A stretch of 37,279 nt of DNA from a bacterium (GTDB taxonomy: Bacteria; Chloroflexota; Dehalococcoidia; Tepidiformales; Tepidiformaceae): assembly GCA_017308185.1 (NCBI GenBank), contig JAFKFP010000107.1, positions 1-37,279 on the forward strand, written 5' to 3'. The translations under genes were made by a program, and so were the position numbers. The notes under the pieces are model-generated. The model worked only from the letters and a program-made list of their open reading frames with translations. It did not search any database and had not been told where the DNA came from. Below, one piece after another: positions 7,352-34,973 of the stretch. Numbering within the stretch: the stretch's first letter is position 1; each line of letters begins with the position of its first letter.

Positions 7352-7496
7352 AGAGAAAACGGACGTCCTGGTCTCGCCAGCACGTTCTTCGAGTATAACA
7401 AGCAGCGTCGTAGCTGCTTTGCATTCGATGGCGAGTCCTAACGCCTGAGATAGCGTAGTATCGACCGGCAAGCATATTTCAGGAGGAAGCCAACAC

Positions 7497-8426: not shown

Positions 8427-8454
8427 CTCCACAAGGGCGATCCGCGCTACTCAA

Positions 8455-8487
8455 AGGGCCGGGAGCAACAGCTCCCGGCCCTCTTTT
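8455..8487 (+). terminator. Intrinsic terminator after the SDR gene
   Basis: A perfect 12-bp stem (8455-8466 with 8471-8482) closes on the 4-base loop AACA and is followed by CTTTT. It lies 28 bases after the SDR stop codon, between that gene and the convergent hisS. Confidence 0.9.
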
Positions 8488-8496
8488 GCGATCAAA

Positions 8497-8524
8497 CAGA
8501 TGGTGACAGGCAGATGGTGACAGG
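8497..8524. repeat. Perfect tandem duplication of a 14-base unit
   Basis: The unit CAGATGGTGACAGG occurs twice head to tail (8497-8510 and 8511-8524), ending one base before the hisS stop codon. It lies between the SDR terminator and hisS and so lengthens the intergenic space. It is probably a replication-slippage product. Confidence 0.9.
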
Positions 8525-9793
8525 TTAGTCAGCAGCCAGGCGGGCCGCCACAGCATCAAGTGCAACCTCGGCCTGTTCCCCGCCGTCGCGCAAGTCCTTC
8601 ACGATCGCCGCACCACGTGCCAACTCGTCATCGCCCAGGATCACCGCGAACGACGCACCGGACGCATTCGCGCTGCGCATCTGCGATTTCATCGAGCGCC
8701 CACTTTCGCCCACGATCGTCGCCCTGCCTACTCGCCGAAGCTGGCTTGCAAGCCTAAATGCTGCAGCCGGTCCGCCTTCGGCGCGGTGCACAATGAACAC
8801 TTCTGCGTGGGCCTCCGGCTGGAGTGTGGCCCCACGTTTCTGCATTTCAAGGATGATCCGCTCGATGCCGCTTCCAAACCCCATCCCTCCCGTTGGCGGG
8901 CCACCAAGGATCTCCATCAGCCCGTCGTACCGGCCGCCCCCACCGAGCGTACCCTGCGCCCGCTCATCGTCGGTCGGTACAATTTCGAAGACAGTACGGT
9001 TGTAGTAGTCCAGCCCGCGGACAAGCATCGGGTCAATGCGGTACGCGATGCCCGCCGACTCGAGTGCGGAACACACTATCGCGTGGTGCGCTGCGGCCGC
9101 GTCGCTGAGTTGATCCACCAGCTTCGGCGCATGCTCTTTGTACTCCAGGTCACGGTCGTCCTTGCTATCGAGCAGGCGCAGCGGGTTTCGCTCAAACCGC
9201 CGCTGGCTATCCTCGGAAAGCCTGGAAAGGTGAGGACGGTAGTAGTCCTTCAGCCGTTCGATGTAGGCTCGCCGCGGGCCGGGGTCGTCTATCGAGCCGA
9301 GCCGCACCTCGATTTCGCTCAGGTTCAGCCTCTGAAGGATCTCCCACAGCAGGGCGATGCACTCGGCGTCCACCAGCGCGTCGTACGAGCCGATCACCTC
9401 GCAGTCGATCTGCGTGTGCTGCCGGTAGCGCCCCTTCTGTGGCCGGTCATACCGAAACATCTGGTGCGTCGTGTATAGGCGAACCGGTTGCGGCCAACTC
9501 GCCATGCCATGCTCCAGGTAGGCTCGGCAAATGGCCGGCGTCCCTTCCGGCGTCAGCGCGAGCAGGTCCCCGCCACGGTCCTCAAAGGTGTACATCTCCT
9601 TTTCGACGATGTCTGTCGTGTCGCCGCTTCCCTTTTCGAAAACGGCTGCGTCTTCGAACACTGGCGTATCAATGCGCTGAAAACCGTGAAGCTTTGTGGT
9701 TTGTTTCGCGGCCGTCGTCACGGCAAGCCAGTAAGGCTGCGCATCCGGCAGCACATCCTGCGTGCCGCGAGGCGCCTGGAGTTTTATTGTCAT
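8525..9793 (-). CDS. hisS: Histidyl-tRNA synthetase
   Basis: Class II aminoacyl-tRNA synthetase charging tRNA-His. The 422-residue product opens MTIKLQAPRGTQDVLP and has class II motif 2 (RYDRPQKGRYRQHTQIDCEV), the histidine-specific loops LVRGLDYYNRTVFE and GGGGRYDGL, motif 3 (GMGFGSGIERI), and a C-terminal anticodon-binding domain. ATG 9793 is preferred over an upstream start at 9823 because family members start next to the PRGTQD motif. It diverges from rel. Confidence 0.95.
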   Translation of the reverse strand: MTIKLQAPRGTQDVLPDAQPYWLAVTTAAKQTTKLHGFQRIDTPVFEDAAVFEKGSGDTTDIVEKEMYTFEDRGGDLLALTPEGTPAICRAYLEHGMASWPQPVRLYTTHQMFRYDRPQKGRYRQHTQIDCEVIGSYDALVDAECIALLWEILQRLNLSEIEVRLGSIDDPGPRRAYIERLKDYYRPHLSRLSEDSQRRFERNPLRLLDSKDDRDLEYKEHAPKLVDQLSDAAAAHHAIVCSALESAGIAYRIDPMLVRGLDYYNRTVFEIVPTDDERAQGTLGGGGRYDGLMEILGGPPTGGMGFGSGIERIILEMQKRGATLQPEAHAEVFIVHRAEGGPAAAFRLASQLRRVGRATIVGESGRSMKSQMRSANASGASFAVILGDDELARGAAIVKDLRDGGEQAEVALDAVAARLAAD

Positions 9794-12501: not shown

Positions 12502-12981
12502 CTACTCGACGCGGCGGCGGTACTGGAGCGCCTCGCCAAGATGCGCCGTCTCGATAATGTCGCTCTCGGCGAGGTCCGCAATTGTCCGGGCGACCTTGAG
12601 GATGCGGTGGAACGATCGCGCCGAGAGGTCGAGCCGTTCGACGGCGACTCGTAGCACTCCCGCTGCATCGTCGGCGAGCTGTGTCTGGGCGAACGCCCGC
12701 ACTTCCGTTGGCGACATATGAGCGTTCAACGTCGTCGGCGAGGCGAGGCCCGCGAACCGCGCATGTTGGACCGCCCGCGTGCGAGCGATGCGTGCCCGCA
12801 CGTCCGCGGAAGGTTCGCCGCGGCCTGCCGCAGCCAGCTTTTCGTACGGCACCCGCGGCACGTCCACAAAGAGGTCGATGCGGTCGAGCAACGGCCCCGA
12901 CAGCCTCCGCTGATAGCGCGAGATCGCCTGCGGGGAGCAGACACAGTCATGGCCCGGGTCGCCAAGGTGCCCACACGGACA
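12502..12981 (-). pseudogene. yifB: YifB/ComM-type Mg-chelatase-like ATPase, C-terminal fragment
   Basis: The minus strand encodes about 160 residues that match the C-terminal third of YifB/ComM (full length about 500): CPCGHLGDP, CSPQAISRYQRRLSGPLLDRIDLFVDVPRV, NAHMSPTEVR, and the terminal SARSFHRILKVARTIADLAESD helix region. Homology stops abruptly at about 12981, in the middle of the expected NPCPCG motif; the preceding residues (FHLHG) are unrelated. The N-terminal two thirds with the Walker A motif are absent and not found elsewhere in the window. ComM is a helicase used in natural transformation. The fragment is unlikely to be functional and marks the left edge of the accessory DNA. Confidence 0.85.
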
Positions 12982-13036
12982 ACCGTGTAGGTGAAATCTC
13001 AACCGGAGCAAACACTGTCTGCCGGGTGCTTGAGAA

Positions 13037-13999
13037 GTGAGCGAACTCCGACGCCACACGCGTCACGTCCCGTGTCCGGTGTGCGGTGGCGGGTCCGACC
13101 TGCCGCACGGCAAGGGTATCCGGTGCGCCGGGTTCAGCCTGGATGCAGTCGCGTACTGCACACGCGAAGAGCGCGCGGGCGGCCTCGAACTGGACATGCG
13201 CGAGAGCCCGCCGGCGTACAAGCATCTGCTTTATGGCGAATGCCGATGCGGCAGGCGCCACGGGACAGACCGTCGGCCCGCGCCGATTGCGCACGCGGCG
13301 ACCGCTTCGGGCCCAACGCCTGACCGGCTTGACGTCGAGGAGCGCCACACCATCTATAGCGCTGCGCTGGCGCTTCTGGATGTGCGCCGCGGAACACATG
13401 ACGACCTGCGACGCCGGGGCCTCGGTGACGAGACCATCGCCGATGTGGGCTATCGTTCGATCCCGCTCAAGGGGAACGCCCAGACGGCATTGATGGCCGC
13501 GATGCGCGAGCGGTTCGGAGATTCCACGCTGTTGCGATGCCCGGGCTTCCATGACAAGAACGGCCGCCTGACCTTTGCCTGTGCAGTTGGGAAGCGCGAC
13601 GGCTACGTGGTGCCCTACCGCGACGAGCGGGGCCGGGTGACCGGGTTTCAGGTGCGGCTTTTCGTCGGTGGGTATCAGACGCCGGCAGGTACGAAGGTGG
13701 CGGAGATCTATCACGTTGCGCGAAGCGGACGCGAGACAGGCGACCTGTATCTCACGGAGGGCGGGCTAAAGAGCCAGGTTGCCTCCAGCGTCGGTGGCAT
13801 CTGGTGCATGGGCATCCCGGGCCAGGCGCTCCAGGGCGCGCATATCGAGGTGATTCGGCGGCTCGAACCGAGGCGAGTAATCGTCGCGTTCGACCAGGAG
13901 CCGAACGACCAGACCAGGCAGGTAACGCTGCGCTGCTGTGACCTGCTGTGGGACGCGGGGCTGCCCGTGTACTCCTCGAAGTGGGAGGGGGTGCTGTGA
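13037..13999 (+). CDS. Primase-like protein with N-terminal zinc finger and TOPRIM-type (DUF3854-like) domain
   Basis: A 320-residue protein beginning at GTG 13037. The N-terminus has zinc-ligand pairs (CPVCGGG near 13, then CRCG near 70) as in phage and plasmid primases. The C-terminal half has TOPRIM-like features: LTEGGLKSQVASSVGG with the catalytic-type glutamate and VIVAFDQEPND with the metal-binding aspartate. Such proteins prime or process DNA for element replication. The TGA (13997-13999) overlaps the ATG of the helicase gene, giving a tightly coupled primase-helicase pair. It starts about 55 bases after the yifB break. Confidence 0.75.
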   Translation: MSELRRHTRHVPCPVCGGGSDLPHGKGIRCAGFSLDAVAYCTREERAGGLELDMRESPPAYKHLLYGECRCGRRHGTDRRPAPIAHAATASGPTPDRLDVEERHTIYSAALALLDVRRGTHDDLRRRGLGDETIADVGYRSIPLKGNAQTALMAAMRERFGDSTLLRCPGFHDKNGRLTFACAVGKRDGYVVPYRDERGRVTGFQVRLFVGGYQTPAGTKVAEIYHVARSGRETGDLYLTEGGLKSQVASSVGGIWCMGIPGQALQGAHIEVIRRLEPRRVIVAFDQEPNDQTRQVTLRCCDLLWDAGLPVYSSKWEGVL

Positions 14000-16464
14000 T
14001 GGGCTACAAGGGACTCGACGAATTGTTGGAGGCGGGCCGGCGTCCGAGGAACCGGGCCTACCACCGGGTGCCTCGGGATTTCGGGCGCCGCCGCGTCCCG
14101 TACGGCGTCGGTTCTGTGGGGCGGGTGGATGGCGGGACCACTCTTTCGGAGGCGCGCGAAAAGACCGGGCGGACGATACGGCGATTCATCCGCAGCCGCG
14201 GACGCGGTGCACAGGCGCTGCTCGTCAAGAGCGCGGCAGGGGCAGGGAAGACGACCGCCGTGGCAAACGCGCTGCGGGACGACCCGTGCGATGCCCGCAT
14301 CCTCGTAGGGACGACAAGACTTGCTCGCGAGCTCGTGCGTGAGAACCCGCACTATCGCCTGATAGAGGGGCGAAACCGCCAGAACTGCGGCCGATACGAC
14401 ATCGTGAAGGAGCTGGGCGACCGAGGCTATCCGGTCGAGCGGTTTGCCTGCATCGTCGGCGGGGAGCCGCTGTGCCCGTTGTTTGAATACTGTCTGTACT
14501 ACGCGCAGTTCGAACAGCCAGGCACCTGGGTCGCCGCGACGGAGCAGCTCTTCAATTCCCACTACCTCGAGACCGGCGAACTGATCGTGCTCGACGACGC
14601 GGACCTGCCACGCGCGCTGGTCGAGCGGCACGAACTCGACGGAGCAACACTGGCCGCCAGCGCTGAGCAGCTCCAGTCACTCAAAGCATCGGAGCGGGAT
14701 GCCGTCCAGACTGCGCTGCGGCTCGTCGAACACGCCCTCATCGACGCCCCGGAGCAATCGTTGCTGGGCGCGGCAGCATGGGACCACCTGGCTGCGGTTG
14801 CACACCGCAACGGCTATGACCTGCCGGACGTGGTCGAACGCCTCCCCAAACCTGGCGTCCTTCCATCGCCCACGGCGGATGAGGCGTACCTGACCGTGGA
14901 GGCGATCGAGCGCGTACCGCCGGCCGGTGTTGGCAAATTGCTCGCGGCACTCAAGGCAGAGCTGGCTGCCTTCCTTGCGGGCGAGGACTTCAATTCGTGG
15001 CTGAAGATCACGCGCGACCGCATCACCGTCGCTACGTTGCGCCAGCACACCCGCAGCCGCAAGGGCGTCGTGTATGCCGCTGAATTGCCCATGCTGATCC
15101 TGGACGCCACACCCGTCCGCTCGCTCGTTGACCACGTCACGCGTTCGCATACGCGGCTGTTAGATGTCGAAGCGCCGATCTCGTTGCCGGAGAACGTGAG
15201 AGTGGTGCAGTACGCCACGCAAACGAACGGCTACCTGCAAATGGCAGACGAACATAATGTCGCGCGGCTCGTTGCCCAGATTCAACGCGACCGCCAGTCC
15301 CATCCCGTGGCGCGGCCGGAGGACGAAGCGGTCGTGTGCTACAAGCGTACGTCCGCCGCGATAGTTGGCGCGGGCTTTGCTCCCGACCGGGTCCTCACCT
15401 ACGGCGCGCTGCGCGGGACCAATGCACTCCAGGATGTCACTCAGCTCTACGTAGTCGGCCGCCCGTTCCCGGCGCCCGACGACCTCGTCTACCTGGCGCA
15501 GGTGATCCACCACGGAGAGGGCGCGATCAGCGAGCAGCTGGTCTTGACGCCGCTGGCGTACGGCGGTCAGGCGGTGGCCGTCGATGTCGTCGATTACGAG
15601 GACCCGCGCGTATCCGAACTGCTCCATGCACGCCGCGAAGATGAACTGGTGCAGGTCATCCACCGCGCGCGCCTCCACACGCTCGCGACGCAGTCCAGCA
15701 TCGGCGGCAACGAGGGCCGAATGGGCGTCCGCCTAGTGCTGCTCACCAGCCAGCCGATACCCGGGCTGCGCGTGGACGAGCTACATCTGCCGGAGGGCGA
15801 CGGAATGGACCTCAACGACCAACGGAAGCGCGAGGCGGCAGAGCGCATACGCAGGGCACGCCAGGAATTGGTTGACGAGGGAAGCGCGCTCACCATTCGC
15901 GGGATCTCGGCACGGGCGGGGTCGAACCGCCAGACCGTGCGGAAGGTGCTGGATGACGCTCTGGGGAACATGGTTCAGACCCCTAAAGGCGGCGAGCCGG
16001 AAACGCAGCTCCCGGGCTCGGGAGCTCAAGGCCTGGGGACACCGGTTCACACCCTTACAGATAAGACTGATAAGGGTGTGAACCACGTTCCCCAGGCGGA
16101 TCGAATAGCTGCGGCGCAGCCCGCATTCGTCGTCGTCGTCCGGACTGAAGCGTTTCGTCGCTGTCCGGCATGCAACAGCCGACCCGCGCGGCCTGAACAT
16201 CTCTGTTTCCGATGCGAGCCTGATGCATACCGCGCAGGCCGTATGTCTGCTGAAGAGGCGGCAACGTCGGTCGCCACCTGGCAGGCGGTACGCGAGTGGG
16301 CGGCATCGAATCAGGCGGCCGACGACCGTTGCGTCTGTGAAGGCTGTCGCGCCTGCGGCGGCCACATCGGCCGCCCTTGCGGCCAGGCCGGGTTGAGCAG
16401 CATCGGCCGCACGGCCAGGCGCTGTACGTGGTGTCTTGAACAAACCCAGGAGGGTGTTGCATGA
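13999..16464 (+). CDS. Large replication-type helicase/ATPase with zinc-binding C-terminus
   Basis: An 821-residue protein starting at ATG 13999. It has Walker A (VKSAAGAGKTT near residue 75), a Walker B-like LIVLDDADLPR near 195, and a later LDATPVR motif typical of superfamily 1/2 helicases. Four cysteines between A and B (NCGRY, ACIV, and CPLFEYC with its preceding context) resemble the Fe-S or zinc cluster of Rad3/DinG-like enzymes. A helix-turn-helix (TIRGISARAGSNRQTVRKVLDD) near 640 and several CxxC pairs in the last 120 residues suggest DNA or protein contacts. Probably unwinds DNA during replication of the element with the upstream primase. ATGA overlap with the next gene. Confidence 0.7.
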   Translation: MGYKGLDELLEAGRRPRNRAYHRVPRDFGRRRVPYGVGSVGRVDGGTTLSEAREKTGRTIRRFIRSRGRGAQALLVKSAAGAGKTTAVANALRDDPCDARILVGTTRLARELVRENPHYRLIEGRNRQNCGRYDIVKELGDRGYPVERFACIVGGEPLCPLFEYCLYYAQFEQPGTWVAATEQLFNSHYLETGELIVLDDADLPRALVERHELDGATLAASAEQLQSLKASERDAVQTALRLVEHALIDAPEQSLLGAAAWDHLAAVAHRNGYDLPDVVERLPKPGVLPSPTADEAYLTVEAIERVPPAGVGKLLAALKAELAAFLAGEDFNSWLKITRDRITVATLRQHTRSRKGVVYAAELPMLILDATPVRSLVDHVTRSHTRLLDVEAPISLPENVRVVQYATQTNGYLQMADEHNVARLVAQIQRDRQSHPVARPEDEAVVCYKRTSAAIVGAGFAPDRVLTYGALRGTNALQDVTQLYVVGRPFPAPDDLVYLAQVIHHGEGAISEQLVLTPLAYGGQAVAVDVVDYEDPRVSELLHARREDELVQVIHRARLHTLATQSSIGGNEGRMGVRLVLLTSQPIPGLRVDELHLPEGDGMDLNDQRKREAAERIRRARQELVDEGSALTIRGISARAGSNRQTVRKVLDDALGNMVQTPKGGEPETQLPGSGAQGLGTPVHTLTDKTDKGVNHVPQADRIAAAQPAFVVVVRTEAFRRCPACNSRPARPEHLCFRCEPDAYRAGRMSAEEAATSVATWQAVREWAASNQAADDRCVCEGCRACGGHIGRPCGQAGLSSIGRTARRCTWCLEQTQEGVA

Positions 16465-18461: not shown

Positions 18462-18671
18462 ATGGGCGACCGGACTGAACACGTATCGCACTTTCCGCCA
18501 GAGTGGGTTCAGAGATCGTCCGGAAGTCGCGAGCGAGGCAGGGGCTGCCGCCGCGGATCTCTGAACCAGTGGTTCTTGGACGATTGGCCACGCTTCTCCG
18601 CAGCCTCGACTCCTGAGAATGCCGCCAGCGCCGCAGCACGGAAACGCACAGAACGCCGCGGACGGAATTGA
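18462..18671 (+). CDS. Small Arg-rich hypothetical protein
   Basis: A 69-residue open frame with a near-ideal ribosome-binding site (AAAGGAG at 18449-18455, 6 bases before ATG). The product begins MGDRTEHVSHFPPEWVQRSS, has a tryptophan-rich middle (NQWFLDDWPRF) and a basic tail. No family recognised. It precedes the methyltransferase by about 120 bases that hold a predicted promoter and hairpin. Confidence 0.5.
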   Translation: MGDRTEHVSHFPPEWVQRSSGSRERGRGCRRGSLNQWFLDDWPRFSAASTPENAASAAARKRTERRGRN

Positions 18672-18685
18672 ACGGCCCGAGACCA

Positions 18686-18713
18686 CTGTCATTCCTCTTG
18701 CACGTGCTACACT
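18686..18713 (+). promoter_or_regulatory. Candidate promoter for the methyltransferase gene
   Basis: CTGTCA (18686-18691) and TACACT (18708-18713) are separated by 16 bases and match the sigma-70 -35 and -10 elements at 4 of 6 and 4 of 6 positions. TGCACGT repeats surround the -10. The predicted leader to the ATG at 18793 is about 70 bases. Confidence 0.4.
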
Positions 18714-18746
18714 GCACGTAGCAATCACGCGCAGTGAGCGCCTCCG

Positions 18747-18781
18747 AGCGCCGGTCCGAAAGGGCACGGCGCTTTTGTTTT
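18747..18781 (+). terminator. Hairpin with T-run (terminator or attenuator) in the methyltransferase leader
   Basis: A 7-bp stem AGCGCCG (18747-18753) pairs with CGGCGCT (18767-18773) around a 13-base loop and is followed by TTTTGTTTT. It lies just before the GGAGG of the methyltransferase gene and downstream of the candidate promoter, the layout of an attenuator; it may also terminate upstream transcription. Confidence 0.5.
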
Positions 18782-18792
18782 GGAGGCACTCG

Positions 18793-20076
18793 ATGGCAGA
18801 CAGTATTCCCACCTCGCAGCAGGTCCCGCTCAGCTCGCTCACGCCCGCCCCCTGGAACCCCCGCACGATCTCGGACGAGCGCTTCACCAACCTCTGCCGC
18901 TCGCTCGAATCAGACCCCGACTTCCTGCGGCTGCGCCCAATCCTCGCGACCACCGACGGCACCATCTTCGCGGGCAACATGCGTTACCGCGCCGCCCAGC
19001 ATTTGGGCTGGGAAACGGTCCCGGCCATCCTGGTGGACATCCCCGAGCAGCTTGCGCGCGAGCGAGCCCTCAGAGACAACGCCCAGTGGGGCGAGTGGCA
19101 GGAAGACGATCTCGCCGGACTCCTCCAGCGCTTGGACCAGGAGGGCAGCGACCTCGGGCTGCTCGGCTTCGAGGACCGCGAGCTGCGCGACCTCCTGAAC
19201 AGACTCGAGCACGAGGGCGGGCTGACCGACCCCGACGCCGTCCCGGACCTTCCCGAGGAAAGCATCACGAGACCCGGCGACCTCTGGCTGCTGGGCGACC
19301 ATCGTGTCCTCTGCGGCGACGCCACCAACCCGCACGATGTTGCCATCGTGATGGCAGGCGAGCAGGCGAAGCTCATGGCGACCGACCCGCCCTACCTGGT
19401 CAACTACGTGGGCGGCAACCATCCTCCCTCGGCCTCCAACCGCCCGGAGGTGCGCGACAAGCACTGGGACGACTACAAGGACCCCGAAAGCGCGGTGGGC
19501 TTCTACGTCGCCTTCCTCGAAGCGGCATTCCCGCACCTTGTCGAGCGCGCACCCGTCTACCAGTGGCACGCCAACACCAGGCAGTCGCTCGTGGACGAGG
19601 CCTGGCGGAAGGCCGGGCTCCTCGCCCACCAGGTCATCATCTGGGTCAAGACGCGTGGCGTCCTCACCCGGAGTCATTTCATGTGGCAGCACGAACCCTG
19701 CATGTACGGGTGGGTGGAAGGCAGGATGCCGAAGCTCAAGCCACCGGCCAACGAGACGACCGTCTGGCACGTGGACCAGAAAGGCGAGCAGGGCGGCATC
19801 CACCCGACGCAGAAGCCGGTGGAGCTCTTCAGGCGTCCCCTCAACTGGCACACGAAGCCTGGTGACCTCTGCTACGAACCGTTCCTCGGGAGCGGCACGT
19901 GTCTGATTGCGGCCGAGCAGCTGGGGCGGAGGTGTTACGGGATGGAGCAGGAACCGGCCTACGTGGATGTCGTGGTCAGGCGCTGGGAGGAGTACACGGG
20001 GCGCAAGGCCGAGCGCATCACCGCAGGAGACGAGGAAGCCCGGCTGGTTGAGCCGGGCTCCGAGGTGGTGGCGTGA
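18793..20076 (+). CDS. ParB-domain DNA N6-adenine/N4-cytosine methyltransferase
   Basis: A 427-residue protein starting at ATG 18793 with GGAGG 7 bases upstream. Residues about 5-130 are a ParB/sulfiredoxin-like domain (LSSLTPAPWNPRTI, and GNMRYRAAQHLGW). The C-terminal half is an amino-methyltransferase: motif IV DPPYLVNY near 200, HPTQKPVELFRR near 340, and the SAM-binding EPFLGSGTCLIAAEQLGR near 360, in the beta-class order (IV before I). Such fusions are common in phages and mobile elements and methylate adenine or cytosine to protect or mark DNA. No partner restriction enzyme is adjacent; an HNH nuclease lies 4.3 kb downstream. Target sequence unknown. Confidence 0.88.
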   Translation: MADSIPTSQQVPLSSLTPAPWNPRTISDERFTNLCRSLESDPDFLRLRPILATTDGTIFAGNMRYRAAQHLGWETVPAILVDIPEQLARERALRDNAQWGEWQEDDLAGLLQRLDQEGSDLGLLGFEDRELRDLLNRLEHEGGLTDPDAVPDLPEESITRPGDLWLLGDHRVLCGDATNPHDVAIVMAGEQAKLMATDPPYLVNYVGGNHPPSASNRPEVRDKHWDDYKDPESAVGFYVAFLEAAFPHLVERAPVYQWHANTRQSLVDEAWRKAGLLAHQVIIWVKTRGVLTRSHFMWQHEPCMYGWVEGRMPKLKPPANETTVWHVDQKGEQGGIHPTQKPVELFRRPLNWHTKPGDLCYEPFLGSGTCLIAAEQLGRRCYGMEQEPAYVDVVVRRWEEYTGRKAERITAGDEEARLVEPGSEVVA

Positions 20077-20084
20077 TGGAAGAG

Positions 20085-20345
20085 TCAGACGTCGTGGTAG
20101 GTGACGGCGCTGACCGGGGCCTCGTCGGTGACCCAGCGGCCCGAAAGCGGGTCGTATGGGTCGAGGCGCACGTTGCCCTCGTCGAAGAGGCTGCCGCCGA
20201 AGGTGTCGCGGAAGTCGAGCGCGTCGGTGATGCGCGCGAACTGCACTGCTTGGCTCTCCGTCCGAACGACGAAGCGCTGAGGGCGCGCTGGCCAGGTGCG
20301 CTGCCGGGTGTGGCGGGTGGCGATGCTGATGACCGGGACCTTCAT
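20085..20345 (-). CDS. Hypothetical small protein, convergent to the methyltransferase
   Basis: An 86-residue minus-strand gene supported by AGGAGG 7 bases before the ATG at 20345. The product starts MKVPVISIATRHTRQRTWPA and contains FRDTFGGSLFDEGNVRLDPYDPLSGRWV. It is beta-strand-like and soluble; I do not recognise it. Its end is 8 bases from the methyltransferase stop, so transcription converges there. Lone opposite orientation in a plus-strand cluster suggests a regulatory or accessory role (inference). Confidence 0.6.
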   Translation of the reverse strand: MKVPVISIATRHTRQRTWPARPQRFVVRTESQAVQFARITDALDFRDTFGGSLFDEGNVRLDPYDPLSGRWVTDEAPVSAVTYHDV

Positions 20346-20477
20346 GGGATGTCCTCCTGCGTTGGTGACCCTATAGACGCTCTCCCCCGAGACACCTGCA
20401 AGCGCCGCAGTGATAACGAACTGCATCCTCGTGCTGCTGAAGAGTTATCACCCGAAAGCTTGCTCAGGGGCGGGAGT

Positions 20478-20491
20478 GGAGTGAGTGATGT
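20478..20491 (+). repeat. 14-base leader repeat, copy 1
   Basis: GGAGTGAGTGATGT occurs identically here and at 23180-23193. Both copies sit upstream of a gene with a strong AGGAGG (20518 and 23237). Possibly a shared regulatory sequence or a remnant of duplication. Confidence 0.6.
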
Positions 20492-20517
20492 CCACCGACT
20501 TCCAAAGGAGGTGGCAG

Positions 20518-20967
20518 ATGCCACTGGACAAGCAGGACCTCAGCGCCAACACCGTGCTCGTGGGCACGTACAAGAAGCAGGAGCACCGCGTGCTGGTGCT
20601 CGGCGAACCCGGCCCGGAGCAGGGCTACGAACTGGACAGCGGGACGATCTACAAATCGCTCTCCTCGGCCGCGAAGGCCGTGATGGGTGGGATCTCGGCG
20701 AACGGCTGGCGCTTCTGGTCGCTGGAAGGCGAGGCGCAGGCGAAGCGCGCGGAGAAGCCGACGAAGACCGAGAAGGTCGAGACGGGTACGGGCTGGAAGC
20801 GTCAGCTGGTCCAGATCCGCAAGCTCCCCAACCAGAAGGGCGCACCGGAAGGCCAGACCCGCTGGTTCTGCTCGTCCTGCATGGCGGCCTTCAACGCGAC
20901 CACGGGCATCCGCCCGGAAGAGTGCCCGGAAGGCCATCCCCGCATGACTATCGACGAGCTGAGCTAG
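20518..20967 (+). CDS. RAMA-domain protein with C-terminal zinc ribbon
   Basis: A 149-residue protein starting at ATG 20518, with AAAGGAGG (20504-20511) 6 bases before. The central segment YKSLSSAAKAVMGGISANGWRFW matches the RAMA pattern (SLSxAAxxxxG...NGWxFW), a domain predicted to read modified DNA and found fused to restriction and methylation enzymes. The C-terminus has a zinc ribbon (FCSSC ... CPEGH). A linker rich in Lys/Glu joins them. Neighbouring the ParB-methyltransferase, it may bind DNA methylated by that enzyme (inference). An upstream in-frame ATG at 20485 is disfavoured by the ribosome-binding site. Confidence 0.75.
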   Translation: MPLDKQDLSANTVLVGTYKKQEHRVLVLGEPGPEQGYELDSGTIYKSLSSAAKAVMGGISANGWRFWSLEGEAQAKRAEKPTKTEKVETGTGWKRQLVQIRKLPNQKGAPEGQTRWFCSSCMAAFNATTGIRPEECPEGHPRMTIDELS

Positions 20968-20997
20968 CCGGCCACCAGCCGCCACACGGCACGCCAC

Positions 20998-21021
20998 AGC
21001 GGGCCCCTTCGGGGGCTCGCT
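20998..21021 (+). terminator. Hairpin with UUCG tetraloop after the RAMA gene
   Basis: A 10-bp stem (one G-T pair) from 20998-21007 with 21012-21021 closes on C(TTCG)G, the very stable tetraloop. No T-run follows, so it may be a weak terminator or an mRNA-stabilising hairpin. The nonamer CATAAGCAG is then repeated at 21035-21043 and 21052-21060 just before the next gene. Confidence 0.5.
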
Positions 21022-21069
21022 GCCGTCTGTGCGCCATAAGCAGCCACCACGCATAAGCAGAGGTTATTG

Positions 21070-21471
21070 ATGCTGCCACGCCGCCAGTGCCAGGGGACGA
21101 ACGAGAGCGGTACGCCATGCCGCCAGGCGCCGCTGCATGACGAGGCGTACTGCTTCTGGCACTCGCCCGGCCACGCCGAGGAGGCAGCCGAGGCACGGCG
21201 CCTCGGCGGGCATCGGCGTAAGCGCGAACGCGTCGTCTCGGGCGCCTACGACTTCGAGGGGCTCGGCTCGATCCCGGAGATCCTGCGGCTCGTGGAAGTG
21301 GCCGCATTCGACACGCTGGGGCTGGAGAACTCAGTCGCGCGCAACCGCACACTCGTGGCGGTGGCGCAGGCGGCCGCGAACCTCCACGAGAAAGGCGAAC
21401 TGGAAGAGCGCATCAGGGCGCTGGAAGCCGTCATGAGCACGCGCCCCGACCCGAAGGCGGTGAAGCGATGA
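21070..21471 (+). CDS. Phage-like protein with CxH-type zinc motif
   Basis: A 133-residue protein (ATG 21070; a TTG at 21067 is also possible). The N-terminus RRQCQGTNESGTPCRQAPLHDEAYCFWHSPGH has a C...C...CxxH zinc-binding pattern seen in small proteins encoded near terminase genes in phages. The C-terminal half is a helical segment ending in LHEKGELEERIRALEAVM, also typical of these proteins. The family's role is not known; a DNA-binding packaging or regulatory role is inferred. Its end overlaps the next gene (ATGA). Confidence 0.65.
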   Translation: MLPRRQCQGTNESGTPCRQAPLHDEAYCFWHSPGHAEEAAEARRLGGHRRKRERVVSGAYDFEGLGSIPEILRLVEVAAFDTLGLENSVARNRTLVAVAQAAANLHEKGELEERIRALEAVMSTRPDPKAVKR

Positions 21472-22478
21472 CCGCGCGAGACCAGCGGATGGAGAAGCTC
21501 AACATGTTCCTGACGGTGCCGGAACGCGCCCTCCTGCGGCTGCGCGCCTTCAAAGCGGACGAGCCGGAGGACCCCGCGCTGCGCAGGAGCACGCCCGAGT
21601 GGCAGCTGGCCGAAGTCAACCAGGCGATGCGCCTGGTGAACGGCGTCCACGACACCGTGGGCTGGTACGTCATCTGCCTGCAGACGCGGATGGAGACGCT
21701 CGAGGCGCGCCACGGGATCGTGGCCGCCCTGTCGCTCTGGAGCGCCCACGCCTATCGGGTGCGGGATGCGCTCATTTTCGACCTGCCCGAGCCCATCACC
21801 CAGAGCGAATACGCGGCCAGGCTCGCGGGAGCACGTACTGAATCCGTGACGCTCGCTGACCTCGCCGAACTGCTGGCCGACGACGACGGGGTGGAGGACG
21901 AGGCCACATGGGAGGCTGCAGTGGCGCGCCACCTGGCGGAACTCCAGGCGCTTGTCGGGGACAGGACACTGGCGTCAGCCAAGCGACACGATGGCGAGAT
22001 CGTGGTGGAGTGGGGCGCCTTCTGCGACTGGCGGGGCGAAGAGGTGCACGTCCTCCCCGAGTACGGCGTCAGGGTCAGCACCTGGCCCGACGAAGCGGCA
22101 GAACTCGTGGAGCAGCAGCGCACCACCCTCAGGGCGCTGCGGGAGCGCTGCAACGAAGCGCCCGGGCTCGGGAGCGGCGGCCAGGTGGACGGCCTGCGCG
22201 ACATGCTCCTGGGCGGCCTCTGCGCAGAACTCACACACCTCTGGGAAGACCTGCTGGCGGTGGAGGAGGTGCTCGCGTGGGCAACTGAGCGCTTCTCGGG
22301 CGAGGAGCCGCTCCACCCTGCCGGGCGGGAGATGCTGGACGGCGTGCGCGCCGCCGCTCAGGCCTTGCGCGACGATCTCGTGGACGAGGGCTGCGAGCTC
22401 ACACTTCCCGAGGAACCCGCCAACGACACCGCCAGGCTGCTGCGGCGCAAGGTCGAACAGCGCGAGGAGGAAGGCTAG
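21468..22478 (+). CDS. Unknown helical protein, paralogue A
   Basis: A 336-residue acidic, largely helical protein. It starts inside the end of the upstream zinc protein (ATGA) and is followed two bases later by a shorter gene with a similar N-terminus. The shared block reads LTVPERALLRLRAFKADEP here and LTVKERACLVLAAWCEDEEP in the next gene, followed by conserved VxxxVxxxN and a tryptophan-rich helix. No membrane segment, nucleotide-binding or nuclease motif seen. Encoded with paralogue B in one operon, the two may form a heteromer (inference). Confidence 0.65.
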   Translation: MTARDQRMEKLNMFLTVPERALLRLRAFKADEPEDPALRRSTPEWQLAEVNQAMRLVNGVHDTVGWYVICLQTRMETLEARHGIVAALSLWSAHAYRVRDALIFDLPEPITQSEYAARLAGARTESVTLADLAELLADDDGVEDEATWEAAVARHLAELQALVGDRTLASAKRHDGEIVVEWGAFCDWRGEEVHVLPEYGVRVSTWPDEAAELVEQQRTTLRALRERCNEAPGLGSGGQVDGLRDMLLGGLCAELTHLWEDLLAVEEVLAWATERFSGEEPLHPAGREMLDGVRAAAQALRDDLVDEGCELTLPEEPANDTARLLRRKVEQREEEG

Positions 22479-22480
22479 CG

Positions 22481-23164
22481 ATGGCGAAGACGATCGAAGG
22501 ACGCATCGACAACGTCGCGGGAGACCTGACGGTCAAAGAGCGGGCCTGCCTGGTGCTGGCCGCCTGGTGCGAGGACGAGGAACCCGACGAGGCGCTCCTG
22601 CGGCCATTGCGCTACGGCGACGAGATCGAGCACCGGAAGCTCGTGGAGCGCGTCGCGGACGCCAACAGCCTGGCGGGAGGGCAGCTCTCCTACTGGCAGG
22701 AGTACGTCTGCGAGCTGGAAGTGTATCTGCTCTGGCTGGAGAGCAACCGCCAATGGCAGGAGCGGTACGGATCGCCTGTGCCAGGCACGGGCGAGCCCTC
22801 GCGCTGGAACGCCGGTGCGGGGCTCACGCCGCTCGTGGGCACACGCACGCGGGAGCGCTGGGACGACGAGCCCCCACGTCTCGACCGGCTCAGCGAAGCG
22901 CTCGAAGACCACATAGCGCGCGACCTCGCGCAGCGCTGGCGTGCACTGGCCGCGGTGGACGCCATCTTCGCCGAGCTCTCGGCCGAGTACGGGTGCGCGA
23001 CGATGCACCGGGTGATCCGCCAGGCGGTGGCGGAACTGCGGGCGAAGCTGCTGGACCTCCGCCAGCGCCTCGGGCTCGTGCCGGAGGTGGAGCTTCCCGG
23101 ACCAACGGAGGAGGAGGTGGAGGCGCTGCGCGCCATCGTGTTTTCGGACGAGGCGACGGCTTGA
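22481..23164 (+). CDS. Unknown helical protein, paralogue B
   Basis: A 227-residue protein starting 2 bases after the stop of paralogue A, with GAGGAGGAAGG just before. Its N-terminal 90 residues resemble paralogue A (LTVKERACLVLAAWCEDEEP, a tryptophan-rich SYWQEYVCELEVYLLWLESN helix), while the C-terminal half is different and ends in an acidic tail. Soluble and mostly helical. Probably arose by duplication. Function unknown. Confidence 0.65.
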   Translation: MAKTIEGRIDNVAGDLTVKERACLVLAAWCEDEEPDEALLRPLRYGDEIEHRKLVERVADANSLAGGQLSYWQEYVCELEVYLLWLESNRQWQERYGSPVPGTGEPSRWNAGAGLTPLVGTRTRERWDDEPPRLDRLSEALEDHIARDLAQRWRALAAVDAIFAELSAEYGCATMHRVIRQAVAELRAKLLDLRQRLGLVPEVELPGPTEEEVEALRAIVFSDEATA

Positions 23165-23179
23165 CTTCGTCCCGCGAGC

Positions 23180-23193
23180 GGAGTGAGTGATGT
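23180..23193 (+). repeat. 14-base leader repeat, copy 2
   Basis: Identical to 20478-20491 and likewise 40-50 bases upstream of a start codon with a strong ribosome-binding site (23237). Confidence 0.6.
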
Positions 23194-23236
23194 GCGCCAG
23201 CCGGGTGGCGAGACCGCCCGCAAGGAGGAACGAACC

Positions 23237-23527
23237 ATGACCGTCGCCGAACTGATCGACCGCCTCGAACGCTGCGACCCGGAGGCCACCGTGCGCATCA
23301 TGATGCAGGAGAGCTGGCCGTTCGAGAACAGCATCCTCGGCATCGCGGTGCGCTCGGACTTCGCGAACGAGTGCGAATGCGACCAGCCGGGTGGCGAGCA
23401 CGCGGAAGGCTGCCCGGCGAACGACGATGACTACGGTGACCCGGAGCTGGCGGGCAACGACGTCTTCATCGTTGAGGGCAGGCAGGAGCGATATGGCAGC
23501 AAGGCCGCGTGGAATGTCTGCCGCTGA
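23237..23527 (+). CDS. Hypothetical protein typical of phages and mobile elements
   Basis: A 96-residue protein with AGGAGG 8 bases before ATG 23237. It begins MTVAELIDRLERCDPEATVR and contains ESWPFENSILGIAV, a pattern common to small proteins of phages and plasmids whose role is unknown. A Cys-rich acidic middle (CECDQPGGEHAEGC) may bind metal. It ends the plus-strand cluster and is followed by a GC hairpin. Confidence 0.65.
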   Translation: MTVAELIDRLERCDPEATVRIMMQESWPFENSILGIAVRSDFANECECDQPGGEHAEGCPANDDDYGDPELAGNDVFIVEGRQERYGSKAAWNVCR

Positions 23528-23603: not shown

Positions 23604-23644
23604 GATCGGCTAACAAAATGAAAAACTCATTTTGTTAGCCGATC
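23604..23644. repeat. Perfect 18-bp inverted repeat P1 at the 3' end of the winged-helix gene
   Basis: Arms at 23604-23621 and 23627-23644 are perfectly complementary with a 5-base spacer. The stop codon of the minus-strand gene (23637-23635) lies inside the right arm. The core GATCGGCTAACAAAA is shared with the second palindrome at 24002-24041 upstream of the same gene. Confidence 0.9.
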
Positions 23645-23988
23645 TCGTCTCGCCCGGCACGAAGCTCCTCGAGCGCCGACTGGCCCGCAGCCAGGAGCTG
23701 GACATGCGTTGACCTGCCCCAGAGTGGGTCGTTGGGTGACTTCCGCATCGTGCCCATGCCGGGCAGGTCGCTGTAGCTGGGGCACGCCGTTTGCTGCTGG
23801 TTCTGACGGAGCACATAGCCGTGCTGCTCCAGGCGGGCGAGCGCGCGGGAGACGTCTGCACGGTCCACCGCGGACCAGCCTGGCCGGCGCTTGCCGGGAC
23901 GCCAGCGCACACCCCAACCCCACTCGGCAGGGCTCTCGTCAAGGAATTCGAGGATGTTGCGTTGGAGTATGCTCAGTCGTCTGTCCAT
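23635..23988 (-). CDS. Winged helix-like DNA-binding protein
   Basis: A 117-residue protein with GGAGG 5 bases before the ATG (23988). The N-terminal SILQRNILEFLDE and VDRADVSRALARLEQHGYVLR follow the winged-helix pattern of MarR/PadR-like regulators (helix, recognition helix, then a wing), and the C-terminus THVQLLAAGQSALEEL fits the family. Its stop codon lies within palindrome P1 and palindrome P2 sits about 14 bases upstream of its start, so it may regulate itself through P2. Ligand and targets unknown. Confidence 0.65.
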   Translation of the reverse strand: MDRRLSILQRNILEFLDESPAEWGWGVRWRPGKRRPGWSAVDRADVSRALARLEQHGYVLRQNQQQTACPSYSDLPGMGTMRKSPNDPLWGRSTHVQLLAAGQSALEELRAGRDEIG

Positions 23989-24001
23989 GTGGCCCTCCCG
24001 A

Positions 24002-24041
24002 ATCGGCTAACAAAAATGGCTTCCCGCTTTTGTTAGCCGAT
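24002..24041. repeat. Inverted repeat P2 upstream of the winged-helix gene
   Basis: Arms of 14 bp at 24002-24015 and 24028-24041 (ATCGGCTAACAAAA and its complement) around a 12-base spacer. The arm core is identical to P1 (23604-23644). The position directly upstream of the ribosome-binding site of the winged-helix gene fits an operator. Confidence 0.85.
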
Positions 24042-24092: not shown

Positions 24093-24147
24093 GGACAACT
24101 CTGCACACGGCATAGAGGATCTCTTTAAGTGGTGTGCAGAGTTGTCC
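24093..24147. repeat. Perfect 16-bp inverted repeat with an extra half-site downstream
   Basis: GGACAACTCTGCACAC (24093-24108) is perfectly complementary to 24132-24147, with a 23-base spacer that holds a smaller AGAG/CTCT stem. The decamer ACTCTGCACA recurs alone at 24224-24233. The region from 24042 to 24376 has no convincing gene. It could be a regulatory region or an origin-like site. Confidence 0.75.
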
Positions 24148-24376
24148 CCGGACCGAGATCGGACTCAAGCGCCTGCCGCCGTCGGACGCACACACGACCG
24201 AGCGCATCGCCTTCGGCAGCTCTACTCTGCACAGCTTTCCCCGCCACACCCCTTTGCCATGTCGCAGAGCGCTTCTGAAAGTGGGCGCGTTTTCCCCACC
24301 TTCGGGTTAACCTGCCGGACCAAGCCGCATCGTGCGCGCACCGTGCCAGGCCTGCCGCGCTCCGCGGGCGTTCTAA

Positions 24377-24405: not shown

Positions 24406-24414
24406 GTGCGCGTC

Positions 24415-25377
24415 GTGAGTGGATTTGATGCAGTCGTCGCCAACACCGACCAGCGGTGGTTCCGTCACTTCCGAGGCCAGTCGAACTACGCGGCCGTCGA
24501 AGTCGATGAGGTGAACTTTTGGCGGCCCTTTGCCCAACAGGAGTTCAGAGCCCTGCTTCCGGGTCACCCCTTCTTCTTTCGGCTCAAAGCGCCCATCGCG
24601 GCAATCGCCGGCTTCGGGTTCTTCGCCGTCGAACACGCCGTGCCAGTCCCGGTCGCATGGGATCTGTTCGGTGAGAAGAACGGCACAACCAGCCCGGAGG
24701 ATTTTGTGCAGCGAATCGACAAGTTTCGGTCGCGGCCAGGCACGGCCGATCGAGTGAATGCCAAGCTGAGCTGTCTGGTCCTGCGCGACGCTGTCTTCCT
24801 TCCCGAATCAGCCTGGGTCTCGTGGCAACGAAATGAGGGCTGGTCTCCACGCGTGCAGACCTACAAGCGCTATGACCTCACCACCGCTGCGGGTTCCGTC
24901 CTGACCCGGCTGCTACGCGACAACCATCCTGCAGCCGTCCCGGAACTGACACCGGTTTTCCACCTGGTCGAGTCCGACAACCGAGTTCGTATTGGCGCCT
25001 CCATCGTGGCGCGCGCCGGTCAGGGAACTTTCAAGCTACGTCTACTTAAGGCCTACCAGGGACGATGCGCCGTGACAGGAGAGCACGCGGTGCCGGTCCT
25101 GGACGCGGCGCACATTCAGTCGTACCTCGGCCCGAGCTCTAACCACCTTCAGAACGGGCTGCTCCTGCGTACTGATCTGCATCGCCTGTACGACTCAGGG
25201 TACGTTACTGTGACGCCGGACTTTCGCTTTGAAGTCAGCCGCCGCCTCAAAGACGAGTTCGACAACGGGCAAACGTACTACGACTTAGCAGGGCGTGAAC
25301 TCACGGTGCCGAGCACTGCGAATGCCCGCCCCAGCGTCGAGGCGTTGCGGTGGCATGCAGAGAACGTTTTTCGCTAA
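24415..25377 (+). CDS. HNH endonuclease, COG3440-type predicted (modification-dependent) restriction enzyme
   Basis: A 320-residue protein (GTG 24415; GTG 24406 also possible). The N-terminal 180 residues match the PUA/EVE-like domain of this family: VNFWRPF, PGHPFFFRLKAPIAAIAGFGFF and AWDLFGEKNG. The C-terminal HNH_2 domain is intact: AYQGRCAVTG, LDAAHIQSYL and NGLLLRTDLHRLYDSG hold the catalytic histidines and asparagine. Related enzymes are thought to cut DNA with modified bases (type IV-like), but no activity is shown here. It is monocistronic with its own promoter and follows the dyad-rich region. Confidence 0.8.
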   Translation: MSGFDAVVANTDQRWFRHFRGQSNYAAVEVDEVNFWRPFAQQEFRALLPGHPFFFRLKAPIAAIAGFGFFAVEHAVPVPVAWDLFGEKNGTTSPEDFVQRIDKFRSRPGTADRVNAKLSCLVLRDAVFLPESAWVSWQRNEGWSPRVQTYKRYDLTTAAGSVLTRLLRDNHPAAVPELTPVFHLVESDNRVRIGASIVARAGQGTFKLRLLKAYQGRCAVTGEHAVPVLDAAHIQSYLGPSSNHLQNGLLLRTDLHRLYDSGYVTVTPDFRFEVSRRLKDEFDNGQTYYDLAGRELTVPSTANARPSVEALRWHAENVFR

Positions 25378-29824: not shown

Positions 29825-31396
29825 ATGACACAAGAAGTACTCAGCAGTGGCGACCTGTCGGCGGCGGTCGAAATGTACTCGGCGCTGCTGGGGGGTGGCA
29901 TGTCGCCGGAGATCGCCGCGGGGAATGTCGCGCGAGCCTGGGGCAGTGAGTTTGTTCCCGAGATTGTTGGCAGATTCGAGACACTCCTGGGCGGGATCAT
30001 TCGCCTTGGTGAACCGCAGACACTCGTGCAGGGTGCGAGGTCGGCGGGATGGTACATAGGGCCGAAGACTGGCGACCGGCACTGGCCGGCACTGGCGAGG
30101 GAACTGAAGCGCCGCGGCTGGAGCGGCGAGGATCTCGCCAGCCTGGATCGTGCGTCCACCCGCGTGGTGAGCCTGTTGCCACCCCCTGGCTCTGAACAGT
30201 TCTCGGCGCGCGGCCTGGTAATGGGTCACGTCCAGAGTGGGAAGACGACGAATTTCACGTCGGTCATGGCCAAGGCTGCCGATGCGGGCTACAAGGGCTT
30301 CATCGTTCTCGGTGGCATCCACAACGTGCTGCGCAACCAGACACAGAAGCGGCTGGAGGCCGACCTTGAACATCTGAACAGCCAGCTCTGGAACAAGCTT
30401 ACCAGTCGCGACATCGCGCCATCGAACGGACATGCTGGCACGAACGGCGACTTCTCCGCGTCGTTCCCGACCGGCGTCGATCCCTTTCTGACGAGCCTCG
30501 GGCAGCAGCGGATGCTCGCGGTTATCAAGAAGAACGGGACACGATTGCGTGCGCTTCGAAAATGGATCACGGGCGGCAGCGAACTCCTGCTGCGGAACTG
30601 TCCGTTCGTGGTCATTGACGACGAAGCGGACCAGGCGAGCCTGAATACCGCCGCCGATGAACAGCGGAGGACGGCCGTGAACAGGGAGATTCTGAATCTC
30701 CTCAAGGTGCTGCCGAAGTCGGTCTACATCGGCTATACCGCGACTCCCTTCGCCAACTTCTTCGTTGACCCGACGTTCCCGGAGCAGCTGTACCCGCGAG
30801 ACTTCATCGTCTCGCTCGATCGACCCGCAGGGTATTTCGGGGCCGAGCGCTTGTTCGGTCGCGAGCGGCTGGCGACAGAAGAGGAATCGGAGGACGTGGA
30901 CGGGCTCGACATGATCCGGATCATCCCGCCCGACGAGGTTCCTCTGCTCCGCCCGGCATCGAAGGCCGCGGCGGCATCATTTGTGCCGGACGTGACGCCG
31001 TCCGTCAGGCGGGCGCTGGCCTACTTCTGGCTATCCACCGCAGCCCGCCGAGTGCGGTCGGGGGATAGCGGCGTACCAATGCATGCCACGATGCTGGTGC
31101 ACACCACTGAACGGACGGCCGTCCACGCCCGCACGTGTTCAAGGATGATGGCGGAGCGGAATCGCGCGCTCGCCGCATTCGATGGCGGAGCCGACGACCT
31201 CGTGAGCGAGTGGCGCGCCCTGTGGCACGACGAAACCTCGCGGGTCCCGGCGGAGAGTCTGGGCGAGCGCCCCGTCGCATTTGACGAACTGATGCCCCAT
31301 CTGCGCCAGGTTCTGGAGGAGACGGCATTCATCGAAGAAAACTCGCAGAGCCTGACGCGCCTCTCCTACGAGATCCCGGGGCAGGTGGTCGTGCAG
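29825..31396 (+). pseudogene. Z1-domain helicase-like ATPase, C-terminally truncated
   Basis: About 524 residues match the Z1 family up to the junction: GLVMGHVQSGKTTNF (Walker A-type, near 139), FVVIDDEADQASLNT (Walker B-type) and YIGYTATPFANFFVD. The family normally continues with a GGxxLSRGLTLEGL segment, which is absent: homology stops after LTRLSYEIPGQVVVQ (to 31396) and the frame then runs through the antisense of a different gene to 31921. Z1 proteins are parts of defence clusters with MutL-like ATPases and DNA methylases. The gene is probably not functional in this form. Confidence 0.8.
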
Positions 31397-31852
31397 CCCC
31401 TTCGAATACGAGTTCTCGAACATGCTTTTCATGAAGAGCGCCTGGAAAATGAAGAGGCCAACGGCGAAGCCGCAGAGGTACTCGACCATGATATCGAGCC
31501 ACATCGGGAACCCCAGGACCGCCGTGATCGTCGCCGCCACGATGATCCCGGTAGCGTCGCCCGCGATGCAATGGACGGTCGAACCGATGCCTTGCTTCCA
31601 GAGCGGCCGGATGAACTCCTCATGTGCTCCCGGCCTCGGCTCTTTATCGGTGAGGATGTACAGGCCCGCGCCCACCGGTCCCATGTAAAGGATGATCAGC
31701 AGCCACGCCCACTTCATCACCGTGGCCTCCGGCGTGCTTCGGATGTCCCACGCTACGTAGACCAGCGACAGCAGGCACGCGAAGAACCAGGCGAGCACGA
31801 CGACATCAATCCACGCCAGCGGGCCGATACCGGGCAGCGACCAGTCAGTCAT
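31397..31852 (-). pseudogene. DUF4396 membrane protein, C-terminally truncated
   Basis: The minus-strand gene starts at ATG 31852 after GGGAG. The product begins MTDWSLPGIGPLAWIDVVVL, has a PLDc_N-like first part (VYVAWDIRSTPEATVMKWAW) and DUF4396 features: IGSTVHCIAGDATGIIVAA and EYLCGFAVGLFIFQALFMK. It loses homology after FENSYSKGL at about 31397, the point where the Z1 gene on the other strand also stops; the family usually continues for about 70 more residues with a conserved LSMNxxMAG. This family is found beside copper or mercury genes. Confidence 0.75.
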
Positions 31853-31923
31853 GCGCTCCCCACAGGATCACCCTCCTACCAACGGATCGGTCGATGCTCT
31901 CTCGTCCGGCCCGAGGCGTGAGC

Positions 31924-33786: not shown

Positions 33787-33814
33787 GCATCGACTTGCAA
33801 TTGCAAGTCGATGC
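33787..33814. promoter_or_regulatory. Perfect 28-bp palindrome, likely operator upstream of the nickel/cobalt transporter
   Basis: GCATCGACTTGCAA (33787-33800) is immediately followed by its exact complement (33801-33814), with no spacer. It lies in the 316-base divergent space between DUF2933 (start 33577) and the NiCoT gene (start 33894), 79 bases before the latter. Its size and symmetry suit a dimeric metal-sensing repressor, but no regulator is encoded next to it. Confidence 0.8.
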
Positions 33815-33893
33815 GGTCACTATCTAGGCTTGGATGTGCAGCGGGTGGCGATGGCAGTCTTACCCGGCGCGCAGGCACGGTTCGAGGTTGGCG

Positions 33894-34973
33894 ATGCAGC
33901 TAACGAACAAAATTGGCTTGACACGATCAGAGGTGGCGCGGCTCAGCGGCTTCTTCGGATTCGTGGCTGTCTTACATGCGGCCGGGTGGGGCCTCTTCCT
34001 CGCATACGCGCATTCCTTCGGGCCTGTCTACGCCGGCGCGGGTACCCTTGCTTACGGTTTCGGCCTACGCCACGCCTTCGATGCGGACCACATCTCAGCC
34101 ATCGACGATACGACGCGCTTCATGCTTCAACGTGGGAAGAAGCCGCTCGGCGTGGGTTTCTTCTTCTCGCTCGGCCACTCGACGATTGTCTTCTCGCTCT
34201 CCTTCGGCCTGGCGATCGCTGCACGGGCGGTGCAAGCCCACATGGATACCTTCCAAAGCGTGGGAGGCGTCATCGGCGCGAGTGTATCAGGCACATTTCT
34301 CTGGATCGTCGGGATTCTCAACCTGATCGTGCTCATCGGGATTGTGAAGGTCTATCGCGAGATGCAGCGGGGAACCTACCACGCAGAGGAGTTGGAAGAG
34401 CTCCTTACACAGCGTGGCTTTATGAACCGCATCCTTGGCTCAAGATTCCGAAACCTCGTGACAAAGAGCTGGCACATGTATCCAGTGGGGCTGCTCTTCG
34501 GTCTCGGGTTCGACACCGCAACAGAGGTCGGACTCCTGGCGATCACCGCCGGCGCGGCGAGTACCGCGACCACCGCGGGAGGGGGCAATCTCCCTGTGCT
34601 CGGCATCATCGCGTTGCCTATCCTCTTCGCCGCGGGCATGTCCCTCATGGACACGGCGGACGGCGTGTTCATGTCGAAGGCCTACCGGTGGGCCTTCACG
34701 AGTCCGCTGCGGAAGGTCTATTACAACATGACCACGACGGCACTTTCGGTGTTCGTAGCGCTGGCGATAGGCACAATCGAATACTTGCAGGTGGTTAGCA
34801 GCAAGCTCCACTTCAACAACGCGTTCTTCAACTGGTTGAACGCGCTCGACTTCGAAACGCTGGGCTACGCGATCGTGGGGATGTTCATCATTGCATGGCT
34901 CGCATCCGTGGCGCTCTTCAAATATCGGCGGATCGAAGAACGGTGGGTTGGACTCGCGGACGACGACGCGTAG
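33894..34973 (+). CDS. NiCoT family nickel/cobalt transporter (HoxN/HupN/NixA)
   Basis: A 359-residue membrane permease, ATG 33894 with GAGG upstream. All family signatures are present: RHAFDADHISAIDD (the metal-binding HxxxxDH), FFFSLGHSTIVF, LGFDTATEVGLL and LFAAGMSLMDTADG. About eight transmembrane helices. It imports Ni2+ or Co2+ with high affinity, for use in metalloenzymes such as hydrogenase or urease or for cobalamin; none of these is in the window. The metal choice cannot be read from sequence. Confidence 0.92.
   Translation: MQLTNKIGLTRSEVARLSGFFGFVAVLHAAGWGLFLAYAHSFGPVYAGAGTLAYGFGLRHAFDADHISAIDDTTRFMLQRGKKPLGVGFFFSLGHSTIVFSLSFGLAIAARAVQAHMDTFQSVGGVIGASVSGTFLWIVGILNLIVLIGIVKVYREMQRGTYHAEELEELLTQRGFMNRILGSRFRNLVTKSWHMYPVGLLFGLGFDTATEVGLLAITAGAASTATTAGGGNLPVLGIIALPILFAAGMSLMDTADGVFMSKAYRWAFTSPLRKVYYNMTTTALSVFVALAIGTIEYLQVVSSKLHFNNAFFNWLNALDFETLGYAIVGMFIIAWLASVALFKYRRIEERWVGLADDDA

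Follow-up and report, generated by a model that had tools for sequence, protein, structure and literature searches.

A predicted winged-helix gene bracketed by two palindromes with common arms in a likely integrative element of a Tepidiformaceae bacterium

Introduction

Why should a gene of 117 codons carry a long palindrome at each of its ends, both built from the same arms? The question is raised by a locus on contig JAFKFP010000107.1 (assembly GCA_017308185.1; Chloroflexota, Dehalococcoidia, Tepidiformaceae), of which the whole stretch analysed, 37,279 nt, is here called the window. A preliminary description of this DNA saw in the locus either a self-regulated unit or a small mobile or cassette-like unit ending in palindromes. 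Here, we weigh these two readings against two further ones, that the palindromes act as RNA hairpins and that another protein of the same element binds them.

Results

Both inverted repeats were found as they had been described, one of 18 bp that includes the stop codon and one of 14 bp just before the start of the gene. The features of the unit are as follows.

23604-23644: palindrome 1, perfect 18-bp arms (23604-23621/23627-23644, 100% matched) and a 5-nt loop; written with the 15-bp common arm GATCGGCTAACAAAA, it has the 11-nt centre TGAAAAACTCA
24002-24041: palindrome 2, perfect 14-bp arms (24002-24015/24028-24041, 100% matched) and a 12-nt loop
24001-24042: palindrome 2 extended to a mismatched 15th pair, with the arm as in palindrome 1 and the 12-nt centre ATGGCTTCCCGC
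23635-23988, minus strand: winged-helix-like open reading frame (ORF) of 117 aa, an orphan with sub-threshold MarR, HTH_36 and GntR matches
23993-23999, minus strand: Shine-Dalgarno-like GGGAGGG, 4 nt before the ATG

The TAA stop of the ORF (23635-23637, minus strand) lies inside palindrome 1, which itself sits between convergent genes, and 2 nt separate the Shine-Dalgarno-like sequence from the perfect arm of palindrome 2. The two palindromes had been called near-identical, which is true of their arms and not of their centres: the same 14 to 15 bp recur in all four arm copies, with the outermost base giving GATC on three and AATC on the fourth, and the centres (11 and 12 nt) are unrelated. 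Because the arms are alike while the centres are not, it is the arms that look constrained.

The rest of this genome has few inverted repeats that are both long and perfect. With a spacer of at most 15, arms of at least 13 bp were absent from 20 first-order Markov randomizations of the window, and the longest arm in approximately 123 kb of other contigs from the same genome was 13 bp; arms of at least 14 bp numbered zero in those contigs versus four in the window. Palindromes 1 and 2 are alone in forming a hairpin pair with common arms, and no second such pair occurred in 160 kb. Across the draft genome to which the window belongs (3.14 Mb in 443 contigs, 85.85% complete), all four occurrences of the arm, with one mismatch allowed, are around the 117-aa ORF, and the looser palindrome GGCTAAC-N8-38-GTTAGCC matches these two places only. 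The paired repeats around the ORF are a real, non-random, and somewhat unusual arrangement.

Further repeats lie in the window, the nearest of them between the winged-helix gene and its divergent neighbor.

24093-24147: third inverted repeat, GGACAACTCTGCACAC-N23-GTGTGCAGAGTTGTCC, with 16-bp arms and a 23-nt spacer, unrelated to palindromes 1 and 2
24406-25377, plus strand: divergent gene with an HNH_2 nuclease domain

The third inverted repeat is possibly the HNH gene's own operator, and an extra half-copy of it, ACTCTGCACA, lies upstream of that gene at 24224-24233. A 27-nt inverted repeat (85%) at 16031-16097, within the ORF of an 838-aa protein, has GTGTG-N6-TGTCCCC in common with the third repeat, and these are the only two places in the genome where that motif is found; we take the resemblance to be coincidence because the copy at 16 kb is inside an ORF. 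Separately, a perfect 28-bp palindrome, GCATCGACTTGCAATTGCAAGTCGATGC, stands at 33787-33814 just before a NicO-type nickel-transporter gene (33834-34973) and has the look of an operator.

The genes around the unit bear on the question of mobility.

12502-12990, minus strand: C-terminal half of comM/yifB, broken at a CPCG motif
Contig C384, 6056 to about 7150: N-terminal half of comM, breaking at the same CPCG motif
13037-16464, plus strand: start of the element, encoding a primase-like protein (weak phrog_47 match) and the 838-aa protein
18619-23527, plus strand: genes converging on the unit, comprising the next six lines
18619-20076, plus strand: ParB-N/DNA methylase fusion
20485-20967, plus strand: DUF2924/RAMA-like protein
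21067-21471, plus strand: DUF5763-like protein
21468-22478, plus strand: 336-aa protein
22481-23164, plus strand: 227-aa protein
Ending at 23527, plus strand: protein of 96 to 114 aa

On C384, which the assembly does not join to the window's contig (C429), the comM half is directly followed by the gene for a large serine recombinase with Resolvase, Recombinase, and zinc-ribbon domains (6056-8996 for the whole locus on C384), and the two comM junctions have CCGTGTG in common. A host gene with such an integrase at its attachment-site junction is the mark of a large-serine-recombinase integrative element, and that is the arrangement found here. Since comM is split and its other half lies beside such a recombinase, the unit most likely sits in an integrative element, together with the primase-like, ParB-methyltransferase, and HNH genes; the window from about 13.0 kb on is most likely part of that element. 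Relatives of the primase-like and 838-aa proteins occur in two other genomes of the class, on contigs that end before the position of the palindromes. A Z1-domain protein encoded at 29825-31921 is a relative of MzaC, from the anti-phage system MZA, scoring well below the equivalog cut-off, and may be a defense gene.

The mobile element around the unit is far larger than a cassette-like unit. A separate question is whether the unit is itself a small mobile segment, its ends being recombination sites of an attC-like, pdif-like, or transposon-end kind. Some features are suggestive of integron cassettes: a gene is bounded by two copies of one site in the form of terminal inverted repeats, the stop codon falls in an R''-like box (GGC-TAA-C), the ribosome-binding site is just inside the other palindrome, and the whole lies in a larger mobile element. 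The earlier remark that GTTAGCC resembles but does not match the integron core GTTRRRY proved accurate, as GGCTAAC/GTTAGCC differs at one position, having C where R is required. The geometry differs as well. attC sites are imperfect inverted repeats with a palindromic organization (PMC8876359), whereas the stems here are perfect over 14 to 18 bp and have no bulged or unpaired bases. Moreover, the draft genome, at 85.85% completeness, holds no integron integrase above the cut-off (best match to TIGR02249, 80.6 versus 265 bits), although one might be supplied in trans, and the unit is single, with no other cassettes. A second comparison is offered by the pdif (Xer) modules known from Acinetobacter plasmids, in which a small gene module lies between recombinase sites that resemble palindromes (PMC13141974). 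pdif sites have distinct XerC and XerD arms around a 6-bp spacer; the arms here are identical and symmetrical, the spacers are 11 to 12 nt, and no other module is present. No target-site duplication was seen in the sequence around the unit.

Copy number tells against this reading, too. The preliminary description raised the prospect that such palindromes flank different genes in related genomes, but the pattern GGCTAACAA-N4-34-TTGTTAGCC was absent from the 392 other class genomes searched, and neither there nor in the draft genome did we find the same kind of site bounding other genes or a second copy of the unit. In viral contigs, the pattern gave 15 matches, compared with 20 for a reversed-arm control; these matches, at chance level and most with unrelated centers and flanks, were rejected as relatives, as were 28 single-arm matches to the exact 15-mer (with no palindrome among them), which we attribute to chance. 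The shorter pattern GGCTAACAAAA-N3-33-TTTTGTTAGCC was found at 20 loci in genome contigs, mostly of AT-rich Bacteroidota and Firmicutes; these were likewise set aside, having unrelated flanks, in many cases terminator-like A/T tracts or stems, and in no case GATC-extended arms. One striking locus among other taxa, unrelated to the window, carries seven tandem GGCTAACAAAA hairpins at 72- to 73-bp spacing in Lachnospiraceae bacterium G41 (L066, 3475-3946). The arms are unique in the draft genome, and matches elsewhere are at control level or terminator-like. With no second locus in the genomes and contigs searched, no integrase above the cut-off, and neither attC nor pdif geometry, the proposal of a small mobile or cassette-like unit found no support, and we regard it as improbable. 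A variant in which a one-gene unit with the same dedicated palindrome at both ends, its stop codon and ribosome-binding site in or abutting those ends, would be moved or exchanged as a cassette by an unrecognized recombinase of the comM-integrated element seems to us highly improbable.

Do the palindromes instead function as RNA? As hairpins of the winged-helix transcript, the 5' one, beside the ribosome-binding site, could tune translation or stability, and the 3' one could protect the end or halt transcription from both sides. Predicted RNA folding is strong on either strand, both for palindrome 1 (-28 to -29 kcal/mol; z, -9 to -11) and for palindrome 2 (-22 to -25 kcal/mol; z, -6 to -7). 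The position of palindrome 1 between convergent genes is the classical place for a bidirectional terminator, and several of the chance resemblances to the arm found in other taxa are terminator-like. However, neither hairpin is followed by a T-run on either strand, a terminator scan calls nothing there, and no Rfam family matches the palindromes. The identity of the arms between palindromes 1 and 2 is also left unexplained, because a structural hairpin needs pairing and not the same letters; identical arms around unrelated centers favor sequence-specific recognition of the arms. We consider the RNA reading rather unlikely.

If the arms are recognized by a protein, one candidate is the product of the gene that they enclose. 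The 117-aa ORF is gene-like in its codon-position GC (0.70/0.52/0.79), and its Pfam and NCBIfam matches (MarR, HTH_36, and GntR), which fall at residues 39 to 66, are weak but mutually consistent and lie below the curated cut-offs. The best profiles, PF01047 and PF12802 (MarR type), cover the recognition-helix region, with a MarR score of 17.5 bits versus curated cut-offs of 24.6 and 27. A single-sequence structure model had a mean pLDDT of 39.8, too poor for a fold assignment or a structure search. Searches of 60 close relatives, of the class sample, of 400 genomes from a phylum sample, and of viral contigs and phage or plasmid records found no relatives of the protein; weak class-level matches were discarded as LexA-like N-termini or noise. 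From these profile matches, a winged-helix DNA-binding protein is weakly indicated.

Comparison with known regulators is instructive. MarR-type autoregulators give the best, if sub-threshold, profile matches, but MarR operators are compact pseudo-palindromes, unlike the widely spaced 15-bp arms found here. A published parallel in working comes from the winged-helix autorepressor AbiEi, whose target is TGTTGCTTTTA-N27-TAAAAGCAACA, with each arm bound independently (PMC3985639). Its operators (IR1/IR2 upstream of abiE; PMC3985639) resemble the present repeats in being perfect inverted repeats with a long spacer beside the regulator's own gene, and the N-terminal winged helix of AbiEi has its possible counterpart in the fold suggested by the sub-threshold matches. 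AbiEi has one inverted pair of 11-bp arms (N27), at the promoter only, whereas here there are two pairs of 15-bp arms (N11 and N12), one at each end of the gene. No AbiEii nucleotidyltransferase toxin gene was found among the neighboring proteins scanned, and the divergent neighbor has HNH_2. The parallel is an analogy of working and not one of membership. Since AbiEi binds its arms one by one, the unequal and long spacers of palindromes 1 and 2 are no obstacle to reading them as operators.

The arms might also be read as sites for some other protein of the element, for instance one that regulates the HNH gene, a recombination directionality factor, or a protein with a partition or nucleoid role, with the winged-helix gene a mere neighbor. 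The element does encode a ParB-N/methylase fusion and a serine recombinase, and the intergenic region holds the further, unrelated pair of long inverted repeats described above. Against this stands the distribution of the arms, which bracket exactly the 117-aa gene and occur nowhere else in the parts of the element examined or in the rest of the draft genome. We judge this reading distinctly unlikely.

Discussion

Of the two answers first proposed, the self-regulated unit is the best surviving one: the arms are unique to the gene, the arms and not the centers are kept, and AbiEi offers a precedent, although the family matches are sub-threshold and the searches found no homologs. Since the draft genome has these sites at the two ends of the 117-aa gene and nowhere else, economy favors a dedicated local regulator. 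We therefore tentatively favor, at a probability of roughly 45%, an interpretation in which the 117-aa protein is a dedicated autoregulator and each end of its gene carries inverted half-sites set widely apart, in the manner of AbiEi operators.

Under this autoregulator interpretation, the ORF would produce a small winged-helix DNA-binding protein of the integrative element, and the four 15-bp arms would be its dedicated half-sites, set as two widely spaced inverted pairs. Bound to palindrome 2, which adjoins the ribosome-binding site within the divergent region leading to the HNH gene, the protein would repress its own transcription. Bound to palindrome 1, which overlaps the stop codon and looks toward the convergent genes, it may assist, through looping over approximately 400 bp or as a roadblock to elongation or read-through. 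What we observe are the two repeats, found once in the draft genome, arms that are alike around unlike centers, an ORF of coding character, and its placement; the fold, DNA binding, the promoter position, autoregulation, looping, and the contribution of palindrome 1 are all elements that we infer.

Several observations temper this interpretation. The Pfam matches are under their cut-offs, homologs in which conservation of protein and site together could be followed number zero, and a scan upstream of the gene recognized no sigma-70-like promoter on the minus strand. A second operator over a stop codon is unusual. In addition, symmetry this long and perfect would exceed the need of most operators and would equally suit structure in single-stranded nucleic acid.

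As this case shows, a unit with the look of a cassette can be told from real cassettes by its geometry, its copy number, and the integrases present in the genome. If the autoregulator interpretation is right, the locus would represent a compact and testable case of a regulator on a mobile element whose gene is flanked by four identical half-sites for its own product; with one pair of these half-sites lying across the stop codon, the layout of the operators would be unusual.
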